Source: Pedobacter arcticus A12 (GTDB lineage: Bacteria > Bacteroidota > Bacteroidia > Sphingobacteriales > Sphingobacteriaceae). From it: a stretch of 64,000 nucleotides of DNA. The notes under the pieces are model-generated. The model worked only from the letters and a program-made list of their open reading frames with translations, did no database searches and had not been told where the DNA came from. A program made the position numbers and the translations under genes. Positions 216 through 56,622 of this stretch are shown here, piece by piece. The stretch spans positions 704,299 to 768,298 of the forward strand of contig NZ_JH947125.1 of the NCBI RefSeq assembly GCF_000302595.1, read 5' to 3'. Each line of letters begins with the position of its first letter. The first letter of the stretch is position 1.

Positions 216-242
216 TTGGTTTACCAAAAATTGGTTTACCAA
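216..242. promoter_or_regulatory. Tandem GntR-type operators upstream of the leftmost gene
   Basis: TTGGTTTACCAA occurs at 216-227 and again at 231-242, 15 bp start to start. On the minus strand the sites read TTGGTAAACCAA, identical to those at susC. A near -7 element (TCTTTTTG, one mismatch to TAnnTTTG) overlaps the distal copy on the minus strand. FadR-subfamily GntR proteins bind short palindromes with GT...AC arms. Assignment to the regulator at 7165 is inference. Confidence 0.7.
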
Positions 243-543
243 AAAGACGCATTTATCTTGATATTTTAAAGAAATTAGGAAACTAAATTTTTGGTAACTA
301 AGACGTTAGCGGGGTTAATCAATTTGAAAGAGCTTCCAGTTAAGTTTAAAAAGTCAGATTTATTGACACGTCACGTGTTTTTATAGCTAAAAAACTGACT
401 TTAAAACTCTTTTGACCGCTTTTTAGGTAGCGTTTAATATTCTCCTCTATACATTTAAGAATATACCCTATGCTGAGTTAGTGCTTAGCGTAAATTGGTG
501 TGCACCAAACGTTTTTCTTGTAAAAAGATTTAAACGAATTTAT

Positions 544-598
544 TTGGTTAACCAGATTATATCATTACATTTGGTTAACCAATAAAATGGTTGACCAA
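544..598. promoter_or_regulatory. Promoter with three GntR-type operators ahead of the 620 gene
   Basis: Palindromes lie at 544-555 (TTGGTTAACCAG), 571-582 (TTGGTTAACCAA) and 587-598 (ATGGTTGACCAA). A Bacteroidetes-type promoter fits inside them: TTTG at 543-546, 19 bp, then TACATTTG at 566-573. The operators therefore cover both the -33 and -7 elements, as expected for repression. The third palindrome also contains an ATG in frame with the downstream gene, which is why that ATG is not taken as the start. Confidence 0.72.
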
Positions 599-619
599 TT
601 TAAATTTTCTTACACCGCA

Positions 620-1516
620 ATGAAAACAACAATACCTGTTTTGGTTATGCTATTAATTAGTAGCCTTTCGTGTAGTAAAAAAACAAGCAAGGAGGATTAT
701 GTTTCTCCTATTGTTAAAGTTGAAAATCCAATTGTTCCAGTTGAACCAGAAAAAACTAGCGGAGTTACGTTATCTGCTGACGGGCTCACCAATACTTATA
801 CTTTAATAAATAAATATTTTGGTGGCACTGGCGATGTTATAGAAACCCCAGATTGTGCACATTCTCCGGGTGCGCCACATATTACTCAGATTTATGATGA
901 GCTTTTGAAAAAGTATGTTTTTGCTTTTCAAATTCATGTAAGTCCTGATAATGATCGCTGTTTGCCTGCTACTGATAGGCAACGTAACGAGATCAAGACT
1001 TATGATAAATCTCCAGACTCGCTATTGGCATCCTTAAATGAAACGGTTAGATACAGTTGGAAATTTAAACTTGATAAAGATTTTAAACCTTCTCCAAACT
1101 TTACCCATATCCATCAAATAAAAGCTTTAGACGGCGATGATGATTTGCCTTTGATCACCTTTACAGCAAGGTATAAATCATCTGGTAATAAATTGGAGGT
1201 TATCCATACTGGCGGAACAGGAACGACCTCTTTAAAATATATAGCCAGTGTGCCACTTTCTGATTTTATGGGAGAATGGGTTGAAGTAAAAGAGGAAGTT
1301 AGTTTTTCTTTCGATGGAAAATATCAGGTTTTGATTAAGCGAATTTCTGACGGGAAAACACTTTTAGATTTAACCGTTAACAATATAGATCTATGGCGTG
1401 ACGCTACAACCTTATGCCGTCCAAAATGGGGGATATATAGGAGTTTATTGTCTCCAGAATATATACGAGATGAACAAATTAGGTTCAACGATTTTAACAT
1501 AACTGAAATTAAATAG
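620..1516 (+). CDS. Lipoprotein, candidate polysaccharide lyase or glycan-binding jelly-roll protein
   Basis: The start is set at ATG 620 because the upstream in-frame ATG at 587 lies inside an operator. From 620 the protein opens with a lipoprotein signal (MKTTIPVLVMLLISSLSC, then SKK), giving about 298 residues. The body has RQRNEIKTY, FTHIHQIK and a likely Cys pair. The Arg-x-x-Glu plus His-Gln-x-Lys pattern recalls beta-jelly-roll lyases (heparinase I, PL7, PL20 types), but I cannot assign a family. It is first in a probable three-gene secreted unit (620, 1522, 2374) under GntR-type operators. Alternatives are a lectin-like or laminin-G-like binding protein. Confidence 0.6.
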   Translation: MKTTIPVLVMLLISSLSCSKKTSKEDYVSPIVKVENPIVPVEPEKTSGVTLSADGLTNTYTLINKYFGGTGDVIETPDCAHSPGAPHITQIYDELLKKYVFAFQIHVSPDNDRCLPATDRQRNEIKTYDKSPDSLLASLNETVRYSWKFKLDKDFKPSPNFTHIHQIKALDGDDDLPLITFTARYKSSGNKLEVIHTGGTGTTSLKYIASVPLSDFMGEWVEVKEEVSFSFDGKYQVLIKRISDGKTLLDLTVNNIDLWRDATTLCRPKWGIYRSLLSPEYIRDEQIRFNDFNITEIK

Positions 1517-1521
1517 ATAAT

Positions 1522-2337
1522 ATGATCAAGCAAACTTTATTAGGTATCTGCCTTTTGGCTTCAACATCAGTTTTAGCACAAACTAGTCCTTTCAATTATG
1601 GTTTTGGGGATGCTAAGGCTTCATTCGCTCCAAATCCTGGTGCTTCTTCCACCAAGTTTTTGCTTAGGATAATGGGGTCGGTAAAAACAATTAAACCAGT
1701 TGTTAGGATACGTACTGCTTCAGACGGTTCGGGCGAGTTTAATTTGGTAACCGATGGAGCAAGTTTTATAAACGGTGCAGGATTAGAAGTAATTGCGGGA
1801 ACTACCACCAGCAAGCTTTCTATGTATGACTTGGAAATGAAAAAAACTACCAAAACGAGTTTCGATATCAAATTTGATGAAAGTAAGACTGGACAATGGA
1901 TTTTTGCTAATGGCAACTCTGCAAGTGAGGAGGATGTTTTCCAAGGAAACTCAAGTGTCAAAGAAACCAATACCGAGATTTTTGCGGGCTTACGTTGGGT
2001 GCTTTCTGAGAGTAATGAATTAAGTTTTTATGTGCGTGAAGGTGCTAAGTGGGAAAAAGTTAAAGTTCATCCTTTTGTAAAAGGAAAAGAATATCATTTG
2101 GATATTATAAGCAACAACGCTGCAACAGAACAAACTATTGAAAGTTATAAAGTTTCAGAAGGTACTTATCAGATTATGCTTAGCGGAAGTCAAATTGGGC
2201 GGGCGTACAAAAGTGGGGGCTTGCAATCTGACACAAATTTAAATGCTATCCTATTTTTAGGATACAAACCGAAAGATAGCAGCGAAAAGCCTAAAGCAAT
2301 ATTGGATAACATTTCTATAACAGATACTCCCAAGTAA
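1522..2337 (+). CDS. Secreted protein of unknown function
   Basis: A 271-residue protein with a signal peptide (MIKQTLLGICLLASTSVLAQ) and no recognised catalytic motif. The body is Ser/Thr/Lys-rich and looks all-beta, ending with LDNISIT, a phrase common at the end of jelly-roll or LamG-like domains. It starts 5 bp after the stop of the previous gene, so the two are almost certainly cotranscribed from the operator-controlled promoter at 544-598. A carbohydrate-binding role is the likeliest reading, but this is inference from context only. Confidence 0.6.
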   Translation: MIKQTLLGICLLASTSVLAQTSPFNYGFGDAKASFAPNPGASSTKFLLRIMGSVKTIKPVVRIRTASDGSGEFNLVTDGASFINGAGLEVIAGTTTSKLSMYDLEMKKTTKTSFDIKFDESKTGQWIFANGNSASEEDVFQGNSSVKETNTEIFAGLRWVLSESNELSFYVREGAKWEKVKVHPFVKGKEYHLDIISNNAATEQTIESYKVSEGTYQIMLSGSQIGRAYKSGGLQSDTNLNAILFLGYKPKDSSEKPKAILDNISITDTPK

Positions 2338-2373
2338 AGCCAAAATAAATTATAAACCAATTTTAAATTAAAT

Positions 2374-5079
2374 ATGATGAGAAAGTTACTTTTTACAACA
2401 GTGCTAATGGCATTTGCCATGTTGAGTTTTGGACAAACCACGTATTATTGGGTTGGGGGGACTACGGATGGTAATATTAATACTGCCGCTAAATGGAATA
2501 CGCAATTAGATGGTTTAGGAGCAACAAGAGCGTCAATTGCGGCAAGTGATATACTAATTATTGACGGGGCAAATATTGGAGGAAATATTCCTATTACTGG
2601 TGTCGCGTCTATTATTGTAAATACATCCACAACTGCTCAAGTAAAATTAAAAAATAACGCCTCTGTCGTTTTGCTAAGAGCTTCAAGTAGCGGATCTCTA
2701 ACGATTGCAAATAATACCCCAGGAGAAGCAGGACTAACAATAGATGCGAGCTCTTCTTTACAGTTAGGTAGACAGGAAAACCCTATAGTTAATACAGGTA
2801 GCGTTTATGTAGATTTCCCTGCTTCCACAGCTTCCATTTTAGGTAAAATAAAGATGGTGCAAGGAGGAGCAACGGGTTTTCAAAGAATAACTAGCCGTAC
2901 GGTTGGTGCGATAATTTTTGAGGATGGTTCAAGTTTAGAATATGATAACGTTTTAGGTTATCCCTTTGGAACTCCAGGGGGGGGGACAAGTAACTCGTCA
3001 AACTATGCTATTGTATTTAAATCAGGAGCAAGTTTAATCAACAACAGTATTTACAGTCCTTTTGGAAATAATTCGGCGAGTTCTATAGTGGATTTTAAAA
3101 GTGGTAGTAATTATTATGTAAGAAAAACTATTACAACGGGTTCTGTTACAAATTCTAAAACATTTGCTAACGTTTTTATAGAAAATGGTTCAACTTTAAC
3201 GACAGATGCCTCGATAATAAATAAAATAGAAAATCTTACTATTGATGCTGGTTCTAATTTCTCTGTGGGAGGAACTTCAAATACTCAGTTACCTATTACT
3301 GGAAATTTAATAGTAAATGGTGCTATTAATGTTGGAACTTATGGTGCTATTTTAGTAATGGGTGGTAGTGCACCTCAATCAATAAGCGGTACTGGATCTA
3401 TAAAAGTAGTGAATTTTGTGGTCGCGGATAAATCTAGCGTAACCTTAGATAATGATGTGGATGTAAGCGTAGCGGTAAACGTTTTCGGTAAATTAAATTT
3501 TAAACAAAATAGAATAAAAGGAGATGGAACATTTGCGTCGCGTGTAAACTTCGTGTCTTCAACTGGTGCTACACAAGCTGGCGCTATCCTAACAGAGGGT
3601 TCGTATCAAATCACTGTTCAGACAAATTTAGCTTTATCAGCTTTACAAGGTTTAGCTATATCTGGAACAGGTATTCCTGTAAATACGAATATCGTATCCT
3701 ATTCATCGGGTAATGGACAAATTAATTTGTCTAAGCCTGCTACTGTATCCGCAACAAATGTAACCTTAACATTTGGAAGCAATGTGGCTACTTTAACTAC
3801 ATCTAACACAAATGGTTTTGACGATGCTTTGGGTAGCGTGGTTGTAACAGGAACTAAAAATTATGAAGCTGGCACAAACTTCATTCTTAATGCCGCTACC
3901 AGTACTCCTTTTTCAATAATTAATTCAAACGATTTAGGCGATGTAACCTTTAACGCGGCAGCAACAACAAATAGAGACGTTACTATCAACGGAAAGTTAA
4001 CTTTAAACAATGCAAAATTAACTATCCGTAATGGCGATAATTTAACAATGGGTTCTTCTGCTACTTTTGATGGTACTTTTGGAAATATGGCTTACATCGC
4101 AACAGAAGCCAATACCTCAACAGGCATTGTAGGGACATTAAAATTATCGACAATAGCTTCTGTTACACAAATCCCAATAGGCACAACTTTAAACTACACA
4201 CCAATTAGTATAACGCCTGCTGAAGCGTCAGATTTTTCTATCAATGTTTTCCAAGGCGCAACAACAGATGCAACACCTAACGGAACCGCATTTACAGCAA
4301 CCCAAAAAAACGGTGCAGTTGATGCGATTTGGAACATTAACCGGACTTCAGGAACAGGTAATTGTGATTTAACTTTTGCTTGGAACGATGCTTTAGAAGG
4401 GTCTAGTTTTAGTGGAAGCGGTTTGGGAGTTGCCAATTATACTGGTGGTGCGTACGGCGCTTTTGCTGGAACAGCAAGTGAAACTACCAATACAGCAACT
4501 GTTTCATCTACCACATTAGGTCAATTTTTAGTAGGTAAACCGTCAGTTTTACCTGTTACTTTAATTTCATTCACTGCAAAAAATAACAATAACAACGTTG
4601 CACTAGCTTGGCAAGCAACAGCAGAAGTAAATTTATCACATTACATTGTTCAACGTTCTACAAACGGAGTTGATTTTACTGATTTAACTATTGTAGAAGC
4701 AAACAATACAACTGGCGTTTTTAATTATGCTTTTTTAGATAGAACTGCAAATTTCGGAACCAATTACTATCAATTAATAAGTGTTGATACCGACGGAAAA
4801 ACTCAAAAAAGCGAATTAAGATCTGCTACGTTGGGAGCGAGTGTAACAAGTGTAAAAGCGTATCCAAATCCAGCAATTAATCAGCTAAATGTTTCAGGTC
4901 TTGCGTTAGGAGATATTATTAAAATGTTCAACACTTCGGGGCAATTATTAATAAGTCAAAATGCGGAAAGCAATCAAGTAAATGCTGTAAATATGACTAC
5001 AGTAAAGCCAGGGATTTATATTTTGTCTATTGAAAATGCAGGTAAAGTAAGTTCAAGTTACCGAATTGTGAAACAGTAA
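2374..5079 (+). CDS. Large secreted beta-repeat protein with type IX secretion C-terminal domain
   Basis: A 901-residue protein with signal peptide (MMRKLLFTTVLMAFAMLSFG). It has a long Thr/Asn/Gly/Val-rich region of beta-solenoid or autotransporter-like character, with many NLTI, GNLIVNG and TLN strands. The last 75 or so residues form a Por secretion tail: VKAYPNPAINQLNVSG, then GIYILSI and a closing SYRIVKQ. This type A sorting signal sends proteins through the T9SS to the cell surface. It is 36 bp downstream of the 1522 gene, probably in the same transcript. Substrate adhesion or glycan display are likely jobs; no enzyme motif was seen. Confidence 0.7.
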   Translation: MMRKLLFTTVLMAFAMLSFGQTTYYWVGGTTDGNINTAAKWNTQLDGLGATRASIAASDILIIDGANIGGNIPITGVASIIVNTSTTAQVKLKNNASVVLLRASSSGSLTIANNTPGEAGLTIDASSSLQLGRQENPIVNTGSVYVDFPASTASILGKIKMVQGGATGFQRITSRTVGAIIFEDGSSLEYDNVLGYPFGTPGGGTSNSSNYAIVFKSGASLINNSIYSPFGNNSASSIVDFKSGSNYYVRKTITTGSVTNSKTFANVFIENGSTLTTDASIINKIENLTIDAGSNFSVGGTSNTQLPITGNLIVNGAINVGTYGAILVMGGSAPQSISGTGSIKVVNFVVADKSSVTLDNDVDVSVAVNVFGKLNFKQNRIKGDGTFASRVNFVSSTGATQAGAILTEGSYQITVQTNLALSALQGLAISGTGIPVNTNIVSYSSGNGQINLSKPATVSATNVTLTFGSNVATLTTSNTNGFDDALGSVVVTGTKNYEAGTNFILNAATSTPFSIINSNDLGDVTFNAAATTNRDVTINGKLTLNNAKLTIRNGDNLTMGSSATFDGTFGNMAYIATEANTSTGIVGTLKLSTIASVTQIPIGTTLNYTPISITPAEASDFSINVFQGATTDATPNGTAFTATQKNGAVDAIWNINRTSGTGNCDLTFAWNDALEGSSFSGSGLGVANYTGGAYGAFAGTASETTNTATVSSTTLGQFLVGKPSVLPVTLISFTAKNNNNNVALAWQATAEVNLSHYIVQRSTNGVDFTDLTIVEANNTTGVFNYAFLDRTANFGTNYYQLISVDTDGKTQKSELRSATLGASVTSVKAYPNPAINQLNVSGLALGDIIKMFNTSGQLLISQNAESNQVNAVNMTTVKPGIYILSIENAGKVSSSYRIVKQ

Positions 5080-5105
5080 ATTTTATAGAGTTAAAAATTG
5101 AATAA

Positions 5106-7061
5106 ATGAACCATCTATTTTCCATTTCCAAAACATTGTTTTGTGCCATTCTATTAATGGTTGCCAACACTGGTTTTGCCGAAGTAAAATTACCGCAGAT
5201 TTTCAGCAGTAACATGGTTCTACAGCGAGATAAGCCCATCCCCATTTGGGGCTGGGCAAATTCTGGCGAAGAAGTTAAAGTTAACTTTTTAGGGGATAAT
5301 TATTTAGCAAAAGCAGATGCAGACGGTAAATGGGAAATAACCATGAAAGCTGTCGTCTTTGGCGGACCCTATATTCTAAATGTAAATAATTTAGTATTGA
5401 CAAATATTTTAGTAGGGGATGTGTTTTTATGTAGCGGGCAAAGTAACATGGCTTTTATGTTACAGAATGCTGATGGGGGAGAAGAAGCCATAAAAAATTC
5501 GGAGAGCCAAAATATTAGGTTATTTACAGTTCCCAGAGCAATTGAATTTTATCCGTTAGATGATATTTCTGAACAAACAGATTGGCAGCTTTGTAATGCT
5601 GAAACAGTAAAAAAGTTTTCGGCTGTGGCTTATTTAATGGCCCGTAAGCTTCAGAAAGATTTAAACATACCCATTGGTGTGGTACATAGTAGTTACGGCG
5701 GAACCGTAATTGAACCCTTTATTAGCGCAGTGCCTTTAGATACCATTGCTCGTTTAAAACCCATTTTAGAAAAAATTGGAGATAAAAATGTAGAAAAGTT
5801 TATTGAAAGCAATGTTGCCGATTATCAAAAAAAGTACGGCAACGTAAATCAAGATTTAAGTGCTGAGGTATTGTGGGATACCATTAATCCTGTTTTGCCT
5901 AAATATGATAGCAGTTGGAGAATAATGAAATTACCCACTTTATGGGAAAAAGCAGGTTTACAAAATGTTGATGGTGTAATCTGGTTTTATAAAGAAATCA
6001 ATTTAAATAAAAAAGACTGTAGCAAAAATGCCTTTTTGAGTTTGGGAAGAATTGCCGATCAAAGTGTTGCCTACTTTAACGGTACAAAATTAGGTTCTTC
6101 TATAGATAGCCGTGATTTTGAGAGGACGTATAATATTCCAAAAAATATTTTGCAAGCTGGAACAAATACAATTATGGTAAGGGTTGCAAACAAGGGGCGA
6201 AATGGAGGTTTTTGGGGTCCAGAAGCGCTACTTTATTTTAAAAATGCTAATCAGAAAAAGCTAAGTCTTTCTGGTAACTGGAATTATAAGGTACAAGAGA
6301 TGAAGATTGCAGTTCATCCAAATGATGTTTCTTCTTCAATTTACAACGCCATGATCAATCCTTTAAAAAGTCTTCAATATAAAGGAGTAATATGGTATCA
6401 AGGCGAAAGCAGTGCAAATTGGGCAAATGAGTACGAAGAGTTACTGAAAATAATGATCAAAGATTGGCGTACGCAGTTTAATCAGCCAACGCTTCCGTTT
6501 GTCATCATCCAGCTCCCTAATTATAAAAAAATTCCACAGCAGCCTCAAGTTAATTCAACTTGGGCATTAATAAGAGAAGCTCAGGCAAATACAGCAAAAT
6601 TGCCAAACGTAGGTTTAGTAAGTATTATTGATTTAGGTCTGGCTGATGACATACATCCTACTAATAAAATACCTGTAGGAGACCGAACCGCATTGAAAGT
6701 TGAATCAATGCTATATGGGAAAAAGCTTATGGCAGATGGCCCAATTTTTTACATGGTAAGTTTTGAGAAAGGAAAAGGGGTTGTAACATTTAGCAGCGCA
6801 AAAAATTTGCATGAAAGTGGAAAAATCAATCATTCTTCTTTTATGATTGCTGGTGCAGACAAAAAATTTGTCTGGGCTCAAACTAAATTGATTGATGATA
6901 AAATAATAGTTTGGAATAACGCTATAAAAAATCCAGTTGCCATTAGATATGCTTGGGCAGATAACCCTGGCGATACTTATTTTTGGAATTCTGCTAATTT
7001 GCCTATGCAACCATTTAGAACAGATAACTGGAAAATTCAAATAGAAGAAATTCCTAGATAA
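5106..7061 (+). CDS. Sialate O-acetylesterase-like carbohydrate esterase
   Basis: A 651-residue secreted protein (signal MNHLFSISKTLFCAILLMV). It has the SGNH/SASA family nucleophile block CSGQSNMAF near residue 113 and the later GVIWYQGES motif, with an inserted beta-galactosidase-like jelly-roll segment in the middle (WFYKEINL through TIMVRVANKG). Family members remove O-acetyl groups from sugars. It is the last gene before gntR. Bacterial alginates can be O-acetylated, so it may deacetylate substrate before lyase attack; that role is inference. Length matches Bacteroidetes SASA proteins. Confidence 0.8.
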   Translation: MNHLFSISKTLFCAILLMVANTGFAEVKLPQIFSSNMVLQRDKPIPIWGWANSGEEVKVNFLGDNYLAKADADGKWEITMKAVVFGGPYILNVNNLVLTNILVGDVFLCSGQSNMAFMLQNADGGEEAIKNSESQNIRLFTVPRAIEFYPLDDISEQTDWQLCNAETVKKFSAVAYLMARKLQKDLNIPIGVVHSSYGGTVIEPFISAVPLDTIARLKPILEKIGDKNVEKFIESNVADYQKKYGNVNQDLSAEVLWDTINPVLPKYDSSWRIMKLPTLWEKAGLQNVDGVIWFYKEINLNKKDCSKNAFLSLGRIADQSVAYFNGTKLGSSIDSRDFERTYNIPKNILQAGTNTIMVRVANKGRNGGFWGPEALLYFKNANQKKLSLSGNWNYKVQEMKIAVHPNDVSSSIYNAMINPLKSLQYKGVIWYQGESSANWANEYEELLKIMIKDWRTQFNQPTLPFVIIQLPNYKKIPQQPQVNSTWALIREAQANTAKLPNVGLVSIIDLGLADDIHPTNKIPVGDRTALKVESMLYGKKLMADGPIFYMVSFEKGKGVVTFSSAKNLHESGKINHSSFMIAGADKKFVWAQTKLIDDKIIVWNNAIKNPVAIRYAWADNPGDTYFWNSANLPMQPFRTDNWKIQIEEIPR

Positions 7062-7114
7062 AAAATAAATTTATAATAATCAAAAATATGTTTTTACATT
7101 AACTGTCTTTATAG

Positions 7115-7147
7115 TATATTTGGTAAACCAATTAATTGGTTTACCAA
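7115..7147. promoter_or_regulatory. gntR promoter with two overlapping operators (autoregulation)
   Basis: TTGGTAAACCAA at 7120-7131 and TTGGTTTACCAA at 7136-7147, 16 bp start to start. TATATTTG at 7115-7122 matches the Bacteroidetes -7 consensus TAnnTTTG and shares three bases with the first operator. The second operator ends 17 bp before the gntR ATG. This layout predicts that the regulator represses itself; no good -33 TTG was found. Confidence 0.72.
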
Positions 7148-7164
7148 AATTTTAAAAATTTTGT

Positions 7165-7905
7165 ATGAAATCATTGATAGATACCATTACCGCAATACAA
7201 GTAGAGTCGCCGGTTGATAAGATAATTATTCAACTCAAGCAGCTTATTACCTCTGGTCAATTAAAACCAGGAGATCGGTTACCCGCAGAACGCGTTCTTT
7301 CAGAAAAATTTGGGGTTGGGCGTAGCTACATAAGAGAGGCGATTTTGAAATTGGAGTTTTATGGGCTTTTGAAAATTAATCCTCAGAGCGGTACCTATGT
7401 TGCTGGTTTAAGTATTAATGTGATTGATAGTATTATATCAGACATCATCAACTTTAATAAAGATGATTTTAACGCTTTAATAGAAGCTAGATGTTACTTG
7501 GAATTTAGTGCCGTTAAGTTAGCTGCTGAACGGAGAACTGAGGAAGATTTGGCAGCAATTAAGGAGGCATTAGTTAATTACGAAGACAAAATCAATAGCG
7601 GAGTTAATAACGCTGTTGAAGAGGATATGCTTTTTCATATTAAAATCGCTAAGGCATCAAAAAATTCAGTGATAGAATCTATGATTTTAATTTTGATCCC
7701 TGATTTGATTAAGAATATTGTTGACAATAAAGTGTGTGGCGAAAACAGAGGAAAATCTGCTATTCCAGAACATCGAGCGATCTTAAAAGCAATAGAAACT
7801 AAAGATGTTGCACTTGCCGAACAAGCAATGACAACCCATTTAAACGAAATTTGGCAGATAAGTAAAGCAGGTTTTGCCACAGAAAAAATTATAAGCGAAT
7901 TATAA
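7165..7905 (+). CDS. GntR-family (FadR subfamily) transcriptional regulator of the alginate locus
   Basis: A 246-residue protein. The N-terminal winged helix-turn-helix (about residues 15-85) has GDRLPAERVLSEKFGVGRS and YIREAILKLEFYGLL, typical of GntR. The C-terminal part is an all-helical FCD domain with FNALIEARCYLEFSA, EEDMLFHIKIAKAS and a closing EHRAILKAI, which in this family binds a small acidic ligand, often with a metal. Palindromes fitting the FadR-type pattern (GT/AC arms) lie immediately upstream and at three other promoters in the window. The inducer is likely an alginate-derived monomer such as DEH or KDG; that is inference. Confidence 0.88.
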   Translation: MKSLIDTITAIQVESPVDKIIIQLKQLITSGQLKPGDRLPAERVLSEKFGVGRSYIREAILKLEFYGLLKINPQSGTYVAGLSINVIDSIISDIINFNKDDFNALIEARCYLEFSAVKLAAERRTEEDLAAIKEALVNYEDKINSGVNNAVEEDMLFHIKIAKASKNSVIESMILILIPDLIKNIVDNKVCGENRGKSAIPEHRAILKAIETKDVALAEQAMTTHLNEIWQISKAGFATEKIISEL

Positions 7906-7962
7906 GATTTTGATCTAATAAATCCCAAGAGGAACACAGTTAAGATATTAATTTTAAAAAAA

Positions 7963-10137
7963 ATGAACTACTTAAAAACAGTGGTAATTGTATTGTTTTG
8001 CGCTTTATCGAGCGTTAATATGTATGCCCAAACTCATCCAAGTTTAATGCTTACTCAAGCAAAATTAGCCGAGGTACGTTTGGGTTCTCAAAATAGTGCG
8101 TTATTAAAATCCTCTTATCAAACAATTAAAAAAGATGCAGATCTCGCACTTAAACAACCTATTAACGTTCCAGTTCCTAAAGACGGTGGCGGTGGTTATA
8201 CGCATGAACAGCATAAACGAAATTATACAACCATGCTTAATTGTGCCACAGTTTATCAGATTACAAATGATGAAAAATACGCCAATTATGTAAAAGATAT
8301 ACTGTTAGCTTACGCCAGTCAGTACGAAAAATGGCCAGTTCATCCAAAAAGAAAAGACGACAAAGACGGTGGGCGTATTTTTTGGCAAAGCCTTAATGAT
8401 TTTGTTTGGCAGGTTTACACCATCCAAGCTTATGATTTAGTTTATAATGCCATTTCAAAGAAAGACAGAGCAACAATTGAACAGCATCTGTTTATGCCAA
8501 TCTTAAAGTTTTTCACAGTAGATCGGGTAGAGATTTTTGACCAGATCCATAACCACGGTACTTGGAATTTGGCAGCCGTAGGCATGACTGCTTACGTTTT
8601 AAATAAACCAGATTATGTGCAAATGGCTTTAAAAGGATCCAAGAAAGACGGTAAGTCGGGCTTTTTAGCACAGATCGACCAACTTTTTTCTCCAGACGGT
8701 TACTATATGGAAGGGCCTTACTATCAGCGTTATGCTTTATTGCCTTTCGTAATGCTCGCCAAAGCCATCAACAATTATCAGCCCGAGCTTAATATATTCG
8801 AGTACCGTAATAAATTATTGTCAAAAGCCATTCACACCGCTTTGCAGTTAACTTATACCAACAAAGCATTTTTTCCAATTAATGATGCCATTAAAGATAA
8901 AACTTATGAGTCTGTAGAGTTGGTTTACGGATTAGATATCGCTTACGCTGATATTGAGTCCGAAGCAGATTTGCTTGATATAGCACAGAAACAAGGTCGG
9001 GTTATAGTTTCAGATGCTGGTTTAAAGGTTTCAAAAGCCATCGACGAAGGAAAAATAGAACCTTTTAAGTATAAGTCTTTATGGGTTAAAGATGGTGCTA
9101 AAGGTGACGAAGGCGGTTTGGGTATTTTGAGATATGGACCAAATACAGATCAGCAATTGGTGCTGATGAAAGCGGCATCGCAAGGAATGGGACACGGGCA
9201 TTTTGATCGTTTAAATTTACTTTTTTACGATAACGGAGAAGAAATTTTTCCAGATTACGGTTCGGCCCGTTTCTTAAATATTGATACCAAACGTGGAGGA
9301 GGTTATTTGCCAGAGAATAACACTTGGGCAAAGCAAACCGTGGCGCACAACACGTTGGTGGTAGATCAGGTATCGCATTTTAAAGCAAATGTAAAAGCCG
9401 GTGATGCCAAACATCCAGATCTTTTGTTCTTTTCCGATAAACCCGGTTTACAGGTTGTAAGTGCAAAAGAAGATAACGCTTACGCCGATACTAAGCTGAT
9501 AAGAACAAGCGCTTTAATTAAAATTGAGGGTATTGATAAGCCAATTTTGGTAGATGTTTTTAGAGCAAGTTCTGCAAACACACATCAGTTTGATTTGCCT
9601 TTTTGGTACAAAGGGCAATTGGTAAATTCTTCTTTTAAAGTTGATGCTCAACGAAACAATTTACAAGCTTTAGGCAATAACTACGGCTACCAACACTTAT
9701 GGTTCAATGCACAAAACCAGTTAGATGAAAAAGGTGGTTTCGTATCTATCTTAAACAATAAACGGTTTTATACCACCACTTTTGTTGCAGAAAATCCTTT
9801 GCAGGTTAAATTGGTTTCTATCGGTGCAAACGATCCAGAAATGAACTTGGTTGATGGTAAAGCATTTATTTTGAGTCAGCCAAATGCAAAAAGCCAAACT
9901 TTTGTAAGCATTACCGAAACACATGGTGGTACAGATCCAATTAATGAAACAGTAGCCAGCGCCACTCAAAACATAAAAGACTTAAAAATAATCAGTTCTG
10001 ATGATCAGAAAGCGGTTGTTTCGTTTAAGATGAAAAATCAGCAATATCAATATTCAATAGATTATAATAAAAAGAAGGTTAGCCTCACCCCAGCCCTCTC
10101 CGAAGGAGAGGGAGCCACTACGAAGCCTAATAACTAA
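7963..10137 (+). CDS. PL17-type oligoalginate lyase (heparinase II/III fold)
   Basis: A 724-residue secreted protein (signal ends YAQ). The alpha/alpha-toroid domain shows DQIHNHGTWNLAA (the Asn-His pair, family active site) and EGPYYQRYAL (candidate catalytic Tyr). The heparinase II/III beta domain begins around GILRYGP and carries MGHGHFDRLNLLFYDNGEE with the conserved His. PL17 enzymes cut alginate oligomers exolytically to unsaturated monouronate, usually in the periplasm. The C-terminus (LTPALSEGEG) is translated from an inserted 35-bp repeat found again at 46446, so the native end was probably about 16 residues shorter. It follows gntR by 57 bp. Confidence 0.9.
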   Translation: MNYLKTVVIVLFCALSSVNMYAQTHPSLMLTQAKLAEVRLGSQNSALLKSSYQTIKKDADLALKQPINVPVPKDGGGGYTHEQHKRNYTTMLNCATVYQITNDEKYANYVKDILLAYASQYEKWPVHPKRKDDKDGGRIFWQSLNDFVWQVYTIQAYDLVYNAISKKDRATIEQHLFMPILKFFTVDRVEIFDQIHNHGTWNLAAVGMTAYVLNKPDYVQMALKGSKKDGKSGFLAQIDQLFSPDGYYMEGPYYQRYALLPFVMLAKAINNYQPELNIFEYRNKLLSKAIHTALQLTYTNKAFFPINDAIKDKTYESVELVYGLDIAYADIESEADLLDIAQKQGRVIVSDAGLKVSKAIDEGKIEPFKYKSLWVKDGAKGDEGGLGILRYGPNTDQQLVLMKAASQGMGHGHFDRLNLLFYDNGEEIFPDYGSARFLNIDTKRGGGYLPENNTWAKQTVAHNTLVVDQVSHFKANVKAGDAKHPDLLFFSDKPGLQVVSAKEDNAYADTKLIRTSALIKIEGIDKPILVDVFRASSANTHQFDLPFWYKGQLVNSSFKVDAQRNNLQALGNNYGYQHLWFNAQNQLDEKGGFVSILNNKRFYTTTFVAENPLQVKLVSIGANDPEMNLVDGKAFILSQPNAKSQTFVSITETHGGTDPINETVASATQNIKDLKIISSDDQKAVVSFKMKNQQYQYSIDYNKKKVSLTPALSEGEGATTKPNN
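10081..10115. repeat. 35-bp hairpin repeat, copy 1 (inside the 3' end of the PL17 gene)
   Basis: A 35-bp sequence starting AGCCTCACCCCAGCC and containing the hairpin CCCTCTCC-GAA-GGAGAGGG. It is identical by eye to 46446-46480. Here it overlaps the last codons of PL17 and moves the stop codon downstream. Confidence 0.85.
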
Positions 10138-10275
10138 GTGGGTTTGGTAAAAAAACTATATATCTAATAACAACTAATAAATTAAAAGCCATCAAAACAA
10201 GCCTAATGACTAATGAACTAAATGCACTTAATAAACCTAAAAAACTAACCGCTAACAAACTAACAACCTAAAAAG

Positions 10276-10611: not shown

Positions 10612-10642
10612 GCAATTTCGTCATGTTGAACAATAGCGAAAC

Positions 10643-10691
10643 ATCTCACAAATAGGTAGCGCATGCTATATGCAGACTCTGCTTGTGAGAT
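10643..10691. repeat. Imperfect palindromic element
   Basis: Perfect 9-bp arms ATCTCACAA (10643-10651) and TTGTGAGAT (10683-10691) enclose a 31-bp centre. The flanks TCATGTTGAACAATAGCGAA and CTCGTACCTCGAAATGA are in the style of dispersed Bacteroidetes intergenic repeats. It lies between kdgF and the alpha/beta hydrolase and could act as a hairpin in the mRNA. Confidence 0.5.
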
Positions 10692-10761
10692 TTCTCGTAC
10701 CTCGAAATGAAGTGAGAACAACAACCTAAAAACAGTATTAGATTTAAAAACGAAAAGAAAA

Positions 10762-12656: not shown

Positions 12657-12660
12657 GAAA

Positions 12661-13953
12661 ATGAAAGTAAAAGGATTAAGATGGTGGATTATAGCCTTAA
12701 TTGGCTTAGCAACAGTAATAAATTACATAGATAGAAGTGCAATAAATATTTTATGGCCTTACATCTATAAAGATTTTGGCATAGCTGATGCAGACAATAA
12801 AAATGCTTTGGCTTTGATTACCACTTTTTTTATGATTGCCTACGCTTTAGGGCAAACGTTTACAGGTAAGTTAATGGATGCCGTAGGTACTAGAATAGGG
12901 ATGACGATTTCCATTGTGGGATGGAGTATTTCTATTGCTTTACATGCTTTCGCAAAATCATTAATGTCTTTCAACATCTTTAGATTTATGTTAGGGTTTA
13001 GTGAGGCAGGTAACTGGCCTGGAGCAACAAAAAGTAATGCCGAATGGTTTCCGCCTCGGGAAAGAGCCATTGCGCAAGGAATTTTTGGTGCAGGTGCATC
13101 TTTGGGTTCTGTGGTTTCTGCACCAATTATTGCACTATTATTTATCGCTTTCGGTTGGAAGGTTACTTTTCTCTTGATCGCAGCATTGGGTCTAGTATGG
13201 ATTATTCCATGGTTGGTTGTCAATAAATCAACACCAGATAAACATCCTTGGTTAACAGAAGAAGAGCGTCAACATATTTTATCCCGCAGTCCTTTAGCAG
13301 AAGGGCAGGTAAGTGTTGACGACGCACCAGTTTTAACCTGGAAAGAGCTGTTAAAGTTCAGAAATACCTGGGGGATTATTATGGGTAGGTTTTTTATAGA
13401 TCCAGTTTGGTGGCTGTTTGTAACCTGGCTGCCTACTTTCTTAAAAGAATCTTTCGCTTTTGATATCAAGCAGATTGGTGCGTTTACATGGGTTCCGTAT
13501 TTATTTGCAGCCGTTGGTAGTTTGGCAGGCGGTTATTTCTCTTCCTTTTTAATTAAAAGAGGTAGCGGTGCAGAGCAAGCTCGTAAAACTGCAATTGCGG
13601 TAGGTTCGGCAATTATGTTGGTAGCGCTAATCGCAATTGTTTACCAATTAGATAGTTTAAAAGAAACGCCAATGTTTGCCATGGTGCTCATCGGAATTAC
13701 CCTTTTTGGCTTTCAGTTTTTAATCGGAAACATACAAACCTTACCATCCGATTATTTTAACGGTAAAAATGTTGGAACAGTAGCTGGTATGGCAGGCACC
13801 GCAGCAGTAGCGGGTACCTTGTTAACCACTTGGGCAGTACCAATAATTACCCAAACCAGCTACCAGTCTTTCTTTGTATTGGCGGCGGTTTTAGTGCCAC
13901 TATCGTGGTTGAGTGTGAAATATATAACAAGTAAAAAATTACAAATTAAATAA
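12661..13953 (+). CDS. MFS transporter, hexuronate-type (ACS family)
   Basis: A 430-residue inner-membrane protein with about 12 hydrophobic segments. It starts WWIIALIGLATVINYIDRSA, the hallmark of anion:cation symporters such as ExuT, with GKLMDAVGTRIG in loop 2-3 and GFSEAGNWPGATKS in helix 4. It starts 4 bp after the beta-helix gene and ends 8 bp before the SDR, so it is in the same operon. It probably carries the alginate monomer (unsaturated uronate or DEH) into the cytoplasm; the exact substrate is inference. Confidence 0.87.
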   Translation: MKVKGLRWWIIALIGLATVINYIDRSAINILWPYIYKDFGIADADNKNALALITTFFMIAYALGQTFTGKLMDAVGTRIGMTISIVGWSISIALHAFAKSLMSFNIFRFMLGFSEAGNWPGATKSNAEWFPPRERAIAQGIFGAGASLGSVVSAPIIALLFIAFGWKVTFLLIAALGLVWIIPWLVVNKSTPDKHPWLTEEERQHILSRSPLAEGQVSVDDAPVLTWKELLKFRNTWGIIMGRFFIDPVWWLFVTWLPTFLKESFAFDIKQIGAFTWVPYLFAAVGSLAGGYFSSFLIKRGSGAEQARKTAIAVGSAIMLVALIAIVYQLDSLKETPMFAMVLIGITLFGFQFLIGNIQTLPSDYFNGKNVGTVAGMAGTAAVAGTLLTTWAVPIITQTSYQSFFVLAAVLVPLSWLSVKYITSKKLQIK

Positions 13954-13961
13954 ATTAGATT

Positions 13962-14714
13962 ATGCGATTAAAAAACAAAGTAGCAGTAGTAACTGGTGGC
14001 TCTAGAGATATTGGTAGAGCAGTTTCTTTACAATTAGCCCTTGAAGGAGCTAAAGTAGTGGTTAACTATTTTGGCAACCAAGCCAATGCCGACGAAACTT
14101 TGAGATTAATAAAGGAAGCTGGCGGAGAAGCGATTATTGTGAAAGCTGATATGACCAAAGCAGCAGAAGTAGAGGCTTTGGTTGCCGAAACAAAAAAAGC
14201 ATTCGGAAACGAAGTCCACATTTTAGCAAACGTTGCCGGAGGCTTAGTTGCCCGTAAAACAACAGCAGAAATGGACGAAGAGTTTTTTGATTTAGTGATG
14301 GATATGAACTTGAAGTCTGTGTTTTTAGCAGTAAAAAACATTTCTCCTTTAATGCCTAAAGGCGGTTCTATCATTAACTTTACTTCACTTGCAGGCAGAG
14401 ATGGCGGTGGTCCAGGTGCAGCAATTTATGCAACTTCAAAAGGTGCTTTAATGACTTACACTAGAGGCTTGGCTAAAGAATTTGGTCCAAAAGGAATTAG
14501 GGTAAATGCAGTAGCGCCCGGAATGATCGCTACCGCTTTTCATGATACTTTTACAAAACCAGAAGTTCGCGGAAACGTAGCCAATGCAACTTGTTTAAAA
14601 AGAGAAGGCGAAGCTAAAGAAGTAGCTGATTTGGTTATTTACCTAGCTTCTGACGAATCAAGCTATATCACAGGAACCAATATTGATATTAACGGTGGTT
14701 TAAGTTTCTCTTAA
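13962..14714 (+). CDS. SDR oxidoreductase, probable DEH reductase
   Basis: A 250-residue classical short-chain dehydrogenase. The Rossmann motif is TGGSRDIGRA, with NVAGG for the NAG element, catalytic Ser in INFTSLAG, YATSK for YxxxK, and PGMIAT after strand 6. It has the length and C-terminal SYITGTNIDINGG of FabG-like enzymes. In alginate loci an SDR reduces DEH to 2-keto-3-deoxygluconate with NAD(P)H, and its position after kdgF and the transporter supports this. Residue choice at the cofactor loop (NYFGNQ) does not let me call NADH or NADPH. A strong terminator follows. Confidence 0.87.
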   Translation: MRLKNKVAVVTGGSRDIGRAVSLQLALEGAKVVVNYFGNQANADETLRLIKEAGGEAIIVKADMTKAAEVEALVAETKKAFGNEVHILANVAGGLVARKTTAEMDEEFFDLVMDMNLKSVFLAVKNISPLMPKGGSIINFTSLAGRDGGGPGAAIYATSKGALMTYTRGLAKEFGPKGIRVNAVAPGMIATAFHDTFTKPEVRGNVANATCLKREGEAKEVADLVIYLASDESSYITGTNIDINGGLSFS

Positions 14715-14734
14715 TAACCCGTCTTAATTTTTCT

Positions 14735-14770
14735 AAATCCGATAGTTCAAAAAGCTATCGGATTTTTTTT
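14735..14770 (+). terminator. Rho-independent terminator after the SDR gene
   Basis: Stem AAATCCGATAG (14735-14745) and CTATCGGATTT (14755-14765) with a 9-nt loop, followed by a run of T. It ends the gntR-PL17-kdgF-MFS-SDR segment. Confidence 0.88.
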
Positions 14771-14961
14771 GTTTGTAGAAATATCAACATCGTCTTGTAT
14801 ACATTTTGAAATACTTTGTTCACTAACAGGTGCCGTTTTATAATTTTAATTAGATAGGTGATTTTTGTAAAAGTAAACTTACAAACTAAAGCCATTGCGC
14901 TATCCCTTTATTAAGAAAAGATAAATATCTTTAACACTAACCACCGCTCACCAGCCAAAGT

Positions 14962-17900
14962 ATGCTATTTCAGAAATTAAGTTCCATTGCTGACGCCTTT
15001 ACAGATTACAGGCTTTTTTCAGGCTTTAGTAATCGAGTTTTAACAATTTACTTATTGTTAAGCTTTGGCTTTTATACAGCTATCGCTCAAACCGCTCAAA
15101 TTTCTTTTGATAAACTTACCGTAGAATCAGGATTATCGCAAAGTGGCGTAATCGCTATTGCGCAAGATAGTACTGGCTATATGTGGTTTGGTACAAAAGA
15201 TGGGCTCAATCGTTACGATTCAAAACAATTTGAAGTTTTTAGAAATAACAGTGCAGATAGCACATCCATCAGTAGCAGTCAAAATATAAATGCACTGCTA
15301 AAAGATAGTAAAGGCAATTTGTGGGTAGGTACGCAAGATGGTTTAAATAAATACCTTCCAGAAACCAAATCTTTCCAACGCTTTTTTAACAAGCCAAAAT
15401 CGCAATCGAGTTTAAGTAACAATACCATCCGGTGTTTGTACGAAGACAAGGAAGGTAACCTTTGGATAGGGACAGAAAACGGCTTAAATAGGCTGAATAA
15501 AAAAGGAGAATTCGATAGATTTTTTTGCAAAGGTTCTGTTGGTGCGGGTTTGGTTAATCCAATTGTGAAGGCAATTTACCAAGCGAACGATGGCGTTTTA
15601 TGGGCAGGTACGCAATACGGATTGGTTTCACTGACTAAAAAAGGAGAGGCTTATAGCTTCAAAACTTATTTTAATAACAGCAACAGTAACAGTATCTCGG
15701 ATAATGATATTACCGCAATTGCCGAGGATGAAGAACATAATTTATGGATTGGTACACACTTTAAAGGTGTTAATCAGCTAGCAAAAAACACCAATGGTTT
15801 CAAGCGCTTTAACACCGCAAACAGTGGACTTGTTAACAATGTTATCCGTAAAATAATGCTAGATAACCATGGGAAACTTTGGTTTGCAACGCTTAACGGA
15901 ATCAGTATTTACGATCCAGGAGCAAACAGTTTTCAAAACCAAACTCATAATCCAGAAACGCCGGGCAGCTTAAATCAGAATTCTATTTATGATATTTTTC
16001 AGGATAAAGCTGGTTCTGTTTGGGTAGGGACGTATTATGGCGGTGTAAACGTTTATCACCCAAACGCTATATCGTTTCAGATTTATAAACATTACTCCTA
16101 TAAAAATTCATTGAGTAGCAATATTATTAGTGCTTTGGCAGAAGATAAGGCTGGTAATCTTTGGATAGGCACAGAGGCCGAAGGACTGAATTTCTTACAC
16201 CGCAATACTGGTAAGTTTACGACCTTTAGGGTAGGGCAGGGCAAAACATCCCTAAGCTCAAATCTAATTAAAGCAATTAGTATTGATCAACAACAAAATC
16301 TTTGGATTGCAGCTTATGAAGGCGGAGTTGACTATTACAATACGAAAACACAGACCTTTAAAAACTACCAATTATCAATCAGCGAAAAGCGTATTACCTA
16401 TCTGCTTGCAGACCAACAAGGTGATATTTGGGTGGGCACAAAAGGTAAGGGGCTGTTTTTGTATAATCCGGCCGGCGATGCTTTCATTTCTTTAGCAGAA
16501 AATCGAAAAGCTGGTATTTATTTGCCAGCGTCAACAATTAACTGTTTGTTTCAGGATATAGGAGGGAATCTTTGGGTAGCTACAGATGCTGGCTTGTTTT
16601 ACAAGCGAAAAAATGCTGCTGTTTTTGTGCAGATAAAACTTAAAAACAGTAATTATTTTAGCCGAATTAGTGTGATTTCTCAAAACTATAATGGGAAACT
16701 GCTTTTTGGTAGTGATACCGAAGGACTAGCGTATTACAATCCGAAATCCAAAAAAGCAGTCATTTATAATAAAAAAAATGGGCTTCCTTCCAATGCCATT
16801 GCTGGAATTTTAGAAGATAATCAGCGTAGAATCTGGATAAGCACAGATAAGGGATTGGCGTTGTTAGATTCGGGCACTGTTAAAATTTACAATAACAACG
16901 ACGGTTTACCCGGCAATGTTTTTAATAAACACTCTGTTTTAAAAGATAGTAAGGGAGCCTTGTTTTTTGGCGGATATAATGGTTTGATTAGTTTTTACCC
17001 AAAAGATATTTTAGAGAATAATACAGCGCCCAAGGTTGTTTTTACGCAATTGAAGTTGTTTAATAACGAAGTTTCTATTAAAAAAGGTAGTGCCATTCTC
17101 CCAAGATCCTTAAACAGAATAGGCACTTTGGTACTCAACTACCAGCAGAATGTATTTAGTGTCAATTTTGCGGCGTTAAACTTTGTAAAGCCTAGAAAAA
17201 ATAGATACGCTTATAAATTACAAGGTGCTGAACATGAATGGAATGAGGTAAAAGAACCTATAGCTACGTTTACCAACTTACCTGATGGCGAATATACTTT
17301 ACTGGTTAAAGGCAGTAATAACGATGGCGTATTTAATACGTCGCCAGCAAGTTTAGAGATCATTATAAAACCGCCGTTTTGGCGTACTTGGTGGGCATAT
17401 TTGTTTTATACTTTGGCTTTTGTTGCGCTACTTTATTTGGTAATGAGGTTTTTATTGATTAGAGCCTTGTTAAAAAGAGAGCATGATGTGAACCAGATGA
17501 AGGTAGATTTTTTCACCAATGTGTCGCATGAGATACGTACACCACTTACTTTAATTTTGGGACCATTAGAAAAATTGATTCAAGAAACGGAAAACAGTTT
17601 TGCGGTTAACAAGCAGTTGCTGATAATTAACAGAAATGCTAAACGCCTTATGAATTTGGTGAATGAGCTGATGGATTTCCGTAAAATTGAAAGCCGGAAA
17701 ATGAAACTCAAGCTTTCTGCAAGCAATATTGTGAGTTTTGTAGGCGAAATTTATTCATCGTTTGAGCAACTAGCCTCGCAAAAGCAAATAGAATATACCT
17801 TTAAAGCAGATCAAGAGTATATAGAACTTTATTTCGACAAAACACAATTGGAAAAAGCCGTGTTTAACCTACTTTCAAATGCATTTAAATTTACGGCGGA

Positions 17901-19041
17901 AAAACATGCAAAAATAGCAATTGAGATTACCCAAGACCACCAACAGGTTTACATACGAATAAAAGACAATGGTGAGGGTATTGCCGAAGAAAATAAAGCG
18001 AAGCTTTTTACCGATTTTTATCAAGTACCTAATCACCAGCAACGTAATTTGGGTACTGGGATAGGTTTGACTTTATCAAAGAGTATTGCAAAGCTTCATC
18101 ATGGAGATTTGATTTTGGAGCAAGATGCTGCATGTACCAGTTTCTGTTTATCATTGATGATGGGGATTGCGCATTTCAAAGCCGAAGAAATAGCTAGTGC
18201 ACTGGTTATTGAGGATGGCAATTTGCATTCAATTAATTATTACCCAGAAGATTTAGCAGTTGCCGATCTGGATAAAAAAACTTCTATCGTAAGTAACATG
18301 CCCTTGGTTTTGGTGGTTGATGATAATTTGGAGATCAGAGCATTTATTGCAGACGCACTCAGTCCGTTTTATCCGGTAGTGCAGGCAGCTGATGGTAAAC
18401 AAGCACTGGTAATAGCTTTTGAAAAACTGCCAGACGTAATAGTGAGTGATGTGATGATGCCAGAAATGGACGGTTTTGAGCTATGTTCTTTGTTGAAAAC
18501 CGACATTAGAACACGCCATATACCTGTAGTGTTGCTTACGGCCAGAGCCAGCGAAGCACATGAATTAGAAGGTTTAAAAACCGGTGCAGATGTTTACCTT
18601 ACCAAGCCATTTAATACCACAAAACTTAAGCTTATTGTAGATAACCTGATTGCACTGCACCAAAATATGCGAGAAAAGTTTTCGCAACAATTTACATTGG
18701 AACCCAGCGTAGTGCAGATAGAATCTTCTGATGAAGAGTTTTTAAACAAAGTGATGCGTTTATTGGAAGACAATATCAGCAACTCAGATTTCAATGTAAA
18801 TCTTTTCGCATCAGAAATAGGAATGAGCACACCCGTATTCTATAAAAAGATTGATGCGCTTACAGGTTTAACCGTAAATAACTTTATAAAATCAGTCCGT
18901 TTAAAAAGAGCCCTTCAGTTGTTGCAGCAAAAAGCTGGTAACATATCCGAAATAGCGTATATGGTTGGTTTTAATGATGCCAAGTATTTCAGTAAAGAGT
19001 TTAAAAAACAATACGGAAAATCCCCTTCCACCTATATTTAG
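14962..19041 (+). CDS. Hybrid two-component system sensor/regulator (HTCS)
   Basis: A 1359-residue one-protein signalling system. It has an N-terminal signal/anchor, then two seven-bladed-type Reg_prop propellers with many NLWIGT and GVWVGT repeats to about residue 700, a Y_Y_Y domain (YKLQGAEHEWNEV) and a membrane helix near 810-835. The histidine kinase follows with phospho-acceptor His about 856 (NVSHEIRTPL), N box LLSNAFKF and G boxes DNGEGI and GTGIGL. The receiver has Asp about 1163 (VIVSDVMMPEMDG), and an AraC-type HTH closes the protein. HTCS proteins sense oligosaccharides in the periplasm and activate susCD genes. It lies directly upstream of susC, so alginate oligomers are the probable signal. 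Confidence 0.93.
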   Translation: MLFQKLSSIADAFTDYRLFSGFSNRVLTIYLLLSFGFYTAIAQTAQISFDKLTVESGLSQSGVIAIAQDSTGYMWFGTKDGLNRYDSKQFEVFRNNSADSTSISSSQNINALLKDSKGNLWVGTQDGLNKYLPETKSFQRFFNKPKSQSSLSNNTIRCLYEDKEGNLWIGTENGLNRLNKKGEFDRFFCKGSVGAGLVNPIVKAIYQANDGVLWAGTQYGLVSLTKKGEAYSFKTYFNNSNSNSISDNDITAIAEDEEHNLWIGTHFKGVNQLAKNTNGFKRFNTANSGLVNNVIRKIMLDNHGKLWFATLNGISIYDPGANSFQNQTHNPETPGSLNQNSIYDIFQDKAGSVWVGTYYGGVNVYHPNAISFQIYKHYSYKNSLSSNIISALAEDKAGNLWIGTEAEGLNFLHRNTGKFTTFRVGQGKTSLSSNLIKAISIDQQQNLWIAAYEGGVDYYNTKTQTFKNYQLSISEKRITYLLADQQGDIWVGTKGKGLFLYNPAGDAFISLAENRKAGIYLPASTINCLFQDIGGNLWVATDAGLFYKRKNAAVFVQIKLKNSNYFSRISVISQNYNGKLLFGSDTEGLAYYNPKSKKAVIYNKKNGLPSNAIAGILEDNQRRIWISTDKGLALLDSGTVKIYNNNDGLPGNVFNKHSVLKDSKGALFFGGYNGLISFYPKDILENNTAPKVVFTQLKLFNNEVSIKKGSAILPRSLNRIGTLVLNYQQNVFSVNFAALNFVKPRKNRYAYKLQGAEHEWNEVKEPIATFTNLPDGEYTLLVKGSNNDGVFNTSPASLEIIIKPPFWRTWWAYLFYTLAFVALLYLVMRFLLIRALLKREHDVNQMKVDFFTNVSHEIRTPLTLILGPLEKLIQETENSFAVNKQLLIINRNAKRLMNLVNELMDFRKIESRKMKLKLSASNIVSFVGEIYSSFEQLASQKQIEYTFKADQEYIELYFDKTQLEKAVFNLLSNAFKFTAEKHAKIAIEITQDHQQVYIRIKDNGEGIAEENKAKLFTDFYQVPNHQQRNLGTGIGLTLSKSIAKLHHGDLILEQDAACTSFCLSLMMGIAHFKAEEIASALVIEDGNLHSINYYPEDLAVADLDKKTSIVSNMPLVLVVDDNLEIRAFIADALSPFYPVVQAADGKQALVIAFEKLPDVIVSDVMMPEMDGFELCSLLKTDIRTRHIPVVLLTARASEAHELEGLKTGADVYLTKPFNTTKLKLIVDNLIALHQNMREKFSQQFTLEPSVVQIESSDEEFLNKVMRLLEDNISNSDFNVNLFASEIGMSTPVFYKKIDALTGLTVNNFIKSVRLKRALQLLQQKAGNISEIAYMVGFNDAKYFSKEFKKQYGKSPSTYI

Positions 19042-19203
19042 TTATGTATTTGATGACTTTTTAAGAAATCACCCTATTCCTTTAAGATTTTTGCCCCCTA
19101 AGATTATCAATAGGCTATAAATTAGCATCACCAATAATTTGAACCATTATATCTTATTTTCAGAATAAGTTTCGACCAATTTTTATAAAAGATGGGCTAA
19201 ACT

Positions 19204-19258
19204 TTTGTATTAGTGAAATAAAATGATATTTTTGGTAAACCAATTTTTGGTAAACCAA
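19204..19258 (+). promoter_or_regulatory. susC promoter with two GntR-type operators
   Basis: TTTG at 19204-19207, 19 bp, then TATTTTTG at 19227-19234 match the Bacteroidetes -33/-7 consensus. TTGGTAAACCAA at 19232-19243 overlaps the -7 element and a second copy sits at 19247-19258 (15 bp on). This predicts direct GntR repression of susC in addition to activation by the HTCS, whose site could lie in the 160 bp upstream. Confidence 0.75.
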
Positions 19259-22526: not shown

Positions 22527-22548
22527 GATTTTAAAAAAGCAAAAAGAG

Positions 22549-24189: not shown

Positions 24190-24212
24190 ACAGTACAAAT
24201 AAAGATAAGAAG

Positions 24213-25790: not shown

Positions 25791-25820
25791 AATCAGTTTT
25801 TTTCTTAAATAATAATTAAT

Positions 25821-25855: not shown

Positions 25856-25868
25856 CAATGTCTTTAAT

Positions 25869-56051: not shown

Positions 56052-56062
56052 TTTTTTATTTC

Positions 56063-56608: not shown

Positions 56609-56622
56609 TTATTGTTGTTGAA

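Follow-up and report, generated by a model that had tools for sequence, protein, structure and literature searches.

A short palindrome, TTGGTNNACCAA, recurs in closely spaced copies at several promoters of Pedobacter arcticus A12, and the locus raises two questions: which protein reads this element, and what the regular spacing of the copies means. In the window (the whole stretch of 64,000 nucleotides that was analysed), the motif scan located sites at 216, 231, 544, 571, 587, 7120, 7136, 19232 and 19247. Seven of the nine are exact (216, 231, 571, 7120, 7136, 19232 and 19247), and those at 544 and 587 carry one mismatch each. A pair on the minus strand (216..242, spacing 15 bp start to start) lies upstream of a minus-strand gene starting at 199. 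The second group, on the plus strand, is a triple consisting of operator 0 (544..555, one mismatch), operator 1 (571..582, exact) and operator 2 (587..598, one mismatch), in which operator 1 starts 27 bp after operator 0 and operator 2 starts 16 bp after operator 1. Two further plus-strand pairs are found 17 bp upstream of the start of a gntR gene (7120..7147, spacing 16 bp) and upstream of a SusC/SusD operon (19232..19258, spacing 15 bp). The original prediction, made from the letters of this DNA, had described nine sites at four promoters, in pairs or a triple with spacings of 15–16 bp and one of 27 bp, and all of its coordinates were recovered by the scan.

When up to two mismatches were allowed, the window held 68 matches to TTGGTNNACCAA versus 44.2 ± 6.7 expected (largest shuffle 62). 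The pairing, and not the number of single sites, is the telling signal. Another palindrome-like element, TTGGTGTGCACCAA, perfect over 14 bp, has the arms of the operator around a centre of 4 nt and lies at 495–508, 49 bp upstream of the triple. Elsewhere in the window, TTCTTAGACCAA occurs six times in 1.3 kb (55795–57122), which suggests a repeat array unrelated to the operators. A search of window positions 1–36000 against Rfam at the gathering score gave no match.

The genes behind these promoters belong to alginate use, and their operons were assigned by adjacency. The minus-strand gene starting at 199 encodes a secreted lyase with a Chondroitinas_B/PL6-type domain (1083 aa, running past the window start). 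The first gene after the triple (620..1516, plus strand) encodes a Polysacc_lyase protein (PF14099); the ORF program puts its start at 587, within operator 2, and judged by eye translation more likely begins at the in-frame ATG at 620. The gntR gene (7165..7905, plus strand) encodes a 246-aa regulator of the FadR/FCD subfamily, the predicted binder of all pairs. It is followed by an alginate lyase of PL17 type with Hepar_II_III_C and Alginate_lyase domains (7963..10137, plus strand), an esterase, a short Chondroitinas_B-like protein, and, by their domain matches, an MFS transporter and an SDR reductase (12661..14714, plus strand), which are likely to serve uptake and reduction of the alginate monomer. 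A hybrid two-component regulator, extending from a propeller sensor to an AraC-type HTH (14962–19041), stands directly upstream of the 19232 pair, so that the locus holds a two-component as well as a GntR regulator, and the pathway may be controlled in two layers. Behind the 19232 pair, genes for SusC, SusD, an unknown protein, a Chondroitinas_B protein (PL6 type) and an Alginate_lyase2 protein (PL7 type) form one operon by adjacency (19311..29010, plus strand). The PL numbers used here (PL6, PL7 and PL17 of CAZy) are those which we take to correspond to the Pfam families of the lyases.

A FadR-type GntR gene beside one of the pairs had been predicted, and the domain search agrees: the 7165 protein matches PF00392 (66 bits) and PF07729 (86 bits), both over the cut-off, and so combines a GntR winged helix with an FCD domain. 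In its own genome only one other match was found at E up to 0.001, and it is 25% identical. About 17 residues precede the GntR domain. Four residues, D136, H140, H185 and H207, are invariant in 13 aligned orthologs and presumably are the metal/effector residues (D, H, H, H) of the FCD domain. None of the 25 NCBIfam models listed reached its cut-off; NanR was the best (130 bits versus 260), and assignment of the protein to UxuR or ExuR was rejected at 83 and 76 bits versus cut-offs of 442 and 396. Operators of the FadR subfamily are described, in the available part of the survey of that subfamily, as palindromes with TKGT/ACMA boxes, that is, GT/AC arms (PMC4494728). TTGGTNNACCAA fits this consensus with a gap of 2 nt, as would be expected if the 7165 protein binds it.

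The whole genome (4,228,921 bases in 16 contigs) was scanned with the reversed motif as control. Exact single TTGGTNNACCAA sites numbered 19, and the reversed control gave 11. Nine of the 19 lie in five promoters within 27.6 kb that hold alginate-use genes (C1:695980-723556); the remaining ten are solitary and all fall within ORFs of at least 60 aa, one of them among the last codons of its ORF. With 3 or 4 bp between the sites and as many as three mismatches allowed, pairs were found five times at the alginate locus and once more as a three-mismatch match within an ORF, and never in the reversed control. The fifth pair of the locus lies outside the window, 8.3 kb before it, ahead of a SusC/SusD operon (L018:11681-11707). 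The five promoters, four with pairs and one with the triple, serve the PL6-type secreted lyase, the Polysacc_lyase gene and its followers, gntR and its followers, and two SusC/SusD operons. The original prediction had named frequent occurrence of the pair at unrelated genes as the observation that would speak against it; in its own genome the pair is limited to alginate-use promoters.

The spacing of the sites was analysed in 301 genomes of the family, in which an exact doublet was defined as two exact sites with 0–30 bp between them, so that start-to-start distances of 12–42 bp were allowed. Among the 50 distinct exact doublets, only four of the 31 allowed spacings are used, namely 13 (2 doublets), 15 (33), 16 (12) and 27 bp (3). 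Nine exact doublets from outside the family are spaced by 13 (5), 15 (3) and 27 bp (1), and all five from Flavobacteriaceae are of the 13-bp kind. The strict spacing of 13, 15 or 16 bp suggests that the dimers bind cooperatively. At 10.5 bp per turn, 15 bp corresponds to 154 degrees, 16 bp to 189 degrees and 13 bp to 86 degrees. The idea, put forward with the original prediction, that the dimers cooperate or sit on opposite faces of the helix therefore fits the 15- and 16-bp spacings, as a matter of geometry only. At the 13 bp seen in other lineages the dimers would not face opposite sides, so that this arrangement cannot hold throughout. A preference for 16 bp at the regulator's own promoter was also considered (12/20 versus 0/27 exact doublets, with the 27-bp cases excluded). 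The case for it is weakened because other promoters too have pairs spaced by 16 bp, in which one site carries one mismatch (571/587 in the window and 1573/1589 in L203), and because on a Bacteroides plasmid such a pair lies between SusC and GntR genes that diverge from each other.

The same spacings could also have arisen without cooperativity, if two dimers independently occupy the −7 box and the start region at a distance that is inherited. Related genomes do share promoters by descent, and the uniform 13 bp of the Flavobacteriaceae-type doublets (5/5) indicates that spacing follows lineage. However, the SusC, PL6-type and Polysacc_lyase promoters of one genome share the 15-bp spacing despite different linkers, and so few of the allowed spacings are in use that we regard this explanation as rather unlikely, though not negligible.

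The promoter context of the sites was then compared with the Bacteroidota consensus. Promoters of this phylum carry TTTG near −33 and TAnnTTTG at −7, according to the available text of two studies (PMC7366714, PMC6847099); in the part available of the latter, the −7 box extends from T at −12 to G at −5, and the −33 box is weak in Flavobacterium johnsoniae (PMC6847099). In the window, a −7 box is fused to operator 1 at the triple (TACATTTG, 566..573), at the gntR promoter (TATATTTG, 7115..7122) and at the SusC/SusD promoter (TATTTTTG, 19227..19234), all on the plus strand, which are the three overlaps with TAnnTTTG foreseen from the sequence. At the fourth promoter (216/231, minus strand) the box is imperfect (TCTTTTTG). 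A −33-type TTTG is fused to operator 0 of the triple (543..546, plus strand), 27 bp ahead of the TTTG of the −7 box.

The same arrangement prevails in the family. The operator is fused to the −7 box, as TAnnTTTG|GTnnACCAA, in 44 of the 49 oriented exact doublets, and the fused operator, which is the first one in 41 cases and the second one in the three 27-bp doublets, starts exactly in the TTG of TAnnTTTG. At the place expected for the −33 box, 28 to 26 bp ahead of operator 1, T occurs in 79, 91 and 89% of the 49 doublets, and G occupies the next two places in 38 and 36%. Five 27-bp cases were seen (L030, L031, L035, L082 and the triple of the window), and in them the upstream operator starts in a TTTG at about −35 to −32. 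The TTTG elements of the −33 and −7 boxes lie 27 bp apart, so that one operator on each box is a simpler explanation of the 27-bp spacing than the original prediction had offered, the operators being as far apart as the two sigma contacts. When read in the opposite direction as a control, fusion was found in 14 of 49 doublets (13 of them fused at both ends), a consequence of partial symmetry in the outer flanks, and this weakens the reading that the operator is moulded onto the promoter. That both operators of one doublet are never fused to a −7 box at spacings of 13, 15 and 16 bp is no evidence either way, since the letters of the first operator forbid a double fusion. One gntR ortholog (L187) has a different promoter layout, with the operator pair ahead of the TATATTTG box and not on it. 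Taken together, it is an even call whether the operator has been shaped to the Bacteroidota promoter, with its TTTGG start serving also as the last part of the −7 box or, in triples, as the −33 box, with 27 bp as the distance between sigma contacts, and with 13, 15 or 16 bp held for cooperative assembly of the dimers.

The identity of the binding protein was addressed by the co-occurrence of the doublet with the gntR gene. With orthologs defined by E up to 1e-40, the GntR ortholog is present in 32 of the 301 family genomes (33 gene copies). The exact doublet was found in 24 of these 32 genomes, and the 269 genomes lacking the ortholog had none (Fisher 5e-29). In a sample of 395 genomes from the phylum (ortholog at E up to 1e-30), the corresponding numbers were 6/13 and 0/382 (Fisher 3e-10); both Fisher values are overstated, as related genomes are not independent. 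The pair thus occurs only in genomes with the GntR ortholog in both samples, and the observation that would have spoken against the original prediction was not made across genomes either. The reversed control doublet occurred 25 times, in 24 of the 301 family genomes, and showed no tie to the ortholog (2/32 with it, G006 and G085, and 22/269 without it).

Within the family, 29 of 30 gntR loci, the window included, have two or more sites with no more than one mismatch in the 120 bp upstream of the gene. Control stretches from 29 of these loci contained at least two sites in 20 of 5800 cases; extra pairs away from gntR are present in some of the loci. In the exceptional locus (L048), the pair is upstream of the gene preceding gntR. 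The remaining three of the 33 gntR copies have a pair (L202), two single sites 164 bp apart (L201, in G238) or none (L200, in G277, in which no site of up to one mismatch lies within the 1.4 kb examined). In one genome, two gntR orthologs, each with an operator pair ahead of it, lie about 6 kb from one another on a single contig (G020:C72).

The targets of the 50 family doublets, assigned by blastp against the proteins of the window and L018, were GntR in 23 cases, SusC in 10, the PL6-type secreted lyase in 8, Polysacc_lyase in 5 and other genes or nothing similar in 3, and one doublet could not be oriented. In G108, 654 kb of the same contig separate the pair at SusC from that at gntR, and the PL6-type target and gntR are on different contigs in G110, G274 and G105. 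As these targets are far from gntR, linkage alone does not explain the shared operator.

These results bear on the alternative that the palindromes bind another regulator, for example the AraC-type hybrid two-component protein at 14962, and that gntR merely travels with the locus. The position of that regulator directly upstream of the 19232 pair would agree with such a role. In contrast, the pairs precede gntR itself in nearly all family loci, and palindromes with GT/AC arms are the pattern of the FadR subfamily, as far as the available part of the survey goes (PMC4494728), which makes the alternative very improbable. The TTGGTNNACCAA pairs are very probably operators of the 7165-type GntR protein. 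A chance origin from promoter composition, in which the TTTG of Bacteroidota promoters yields TTGG-like matches, has next to no chance of being right and is taken as refuted for the pairs, because exact doublets are confined to genomes with the ortholog and control doublets are not, even though the latter do occur in the family and single operators fused to a −7 box (up to two mismatches, genome-wide) were not commoner than in the reversed control (188/195 versus 227/212 among the matches listed). For this last reason, no further single-site targets are claimed. Exact fusions of operator and −7 box listed genome-wide numbered five, four in the alginate locus and one at C3:914686, the coding end of an ORF.

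The operator can be followed beyond the family. Of 12 gntR loci outside it (43–48% identical), ten have at least one site of up to two mismatches in the 120 bp upstream, three have at least two such sites, and two have none. In a scan of named genomes, the best 80 of 559 relatives were kept, most of them from Flavobacteriaceae. A site of up to one mismatch was present within 260 bp upstream in 60 of these 80, compared with 1 of 80 for the reversed control. At up to two mismatches, 72 of the 80 had a site and 8 had none, a tolerance at which the control is uninformative (52/80, and 9/80 away from motif matches). CTGGTTAACCAA is the consensus of the best 80 relatives, and 13 bp ahead of it stands a second, degenerate site. 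In Zobellia uliginosa (L093/L094), three exact TTGGTNNACCAA doublets lie within 25 kb of gntR; they precede a SusC relative, a PL17 relative and a third gene, and by eye all three are fused to the −7 box. Plasmid records with a relative at E up to 1e-20 numbered 30, of which six were inspected. One of them, from the gut bacterium Bacteroides finegoldii (L204; NZ_OY725910.1, 101 kb), carries an alginate-type locus with a 16-bp pair between divergent genes for GntR (40% identical) and for SusC/SusD and a PL6-type protein. The other five had single sites or none near gntR.

From these data a mechanism can be proposed. The sequences themselves show the sites, their spacing and targets, the co-occurrence with gntR and the fusion to the −7 box; binding by this protein, repression, cooperativity, start points and effector are predictions. 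It is highly likely that TTGGTNNACCAA is the operator of the 7165 FadR-type GntR repressor, that this protein corresponds to Zobellia AusR, as its ortholog or as a close counterpart in function, and that it acts as follows. Without alginate, repressor dimers would occupy two operators 15–16 bp apart. The first dimer, at a predicted −7 to +5, would lie over the start point and the −7 box; the second would sit on the first transcribed bases, at +9 to +20 for the 15-bp spacing or +10 to +21 for the 16-bp spacing. At the triple, an extra dimer would cover the −33 box (about −34 to −23). The sigma factor would then be denied access to the promoters of gntR itself and of the SusC/D and lyase operons, until a breakdown product of alginate, perhaps of the DEH/KDG type, releases the repressor.

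Several known systems resemble parts of this arrangement. The UxuR/ExuR motif of E. coli is TTGGTATACCAA. A literature search for these letters returned unrelated papers only, and one for TTGGTNNACCAA as text returned no paper. UxuR and ExuR are, like the 7165 protein, FadR-subfamily regulators, there of uronate use, and in the available part of the survey UxuR sites share the 2-nt gap between GT and AC, whereas ExuR sites have a gap of 3 nt (PMC4494728); among the motifs in that part of the survey, none is listed from Bacteroidetes (PMC4494728). The alginolytic cluster of Flavobacterium sp. UMI-01 similarly combines alginate operons, GntR genes and predicted −33/−7 promoters, but the available text describes no operator (PMC4306948). 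In E. coli NanR, as described in the accessible part of the report, three dimers bind a repeated operator cooperatively and the spacing is required; unlike here, the repeats are GGTATA, and cooperativity needs an N-terminal extension of 32 residues, compared with the roughly 17 residues of the 7165 protein (PMC8012715). The related NanR is thus a precedent for spaced cooperative binding by several dimers.

The closest system is the AusR regulon of Zobellia galactanivorans, reportedly described by Dudek et al. in 2020 in NAR. The Z. uliginosa GntR protein, from another Bacteroidota family, is 43% identical to the 7165 protein, and its genome has the same palindrome in doublets, although the spacing is 13 bp there and 15 or 16 bp here. 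According to the available portions of reviews, AusR is a GntR repressor of alginate use with single, double and triple operators, and metabolic intermediates release it (PMC8286568, PMC7874173, PMC8073546). In line with a regulon of this type, the GntR gene here lies among alginate-use genes (for proteins with alginate lyase domains and for SusC/D, MFS and SDR proteins), and its predicted operators stand at five promoters, as four pairs and one triple. Judged from sequence, the Pedobacter arcticus system fits best among the AusR-type regulons, a kind already known, as a member from a different family. With the sharply defined operator, the targets and the promoter register that this locus provides, alginate regulons can be searched for across the phylum, including the one on the plasmid of a gut Bacteroides; the locus also offers a simple setting in which to ask if operator spacing sets cooperativity.
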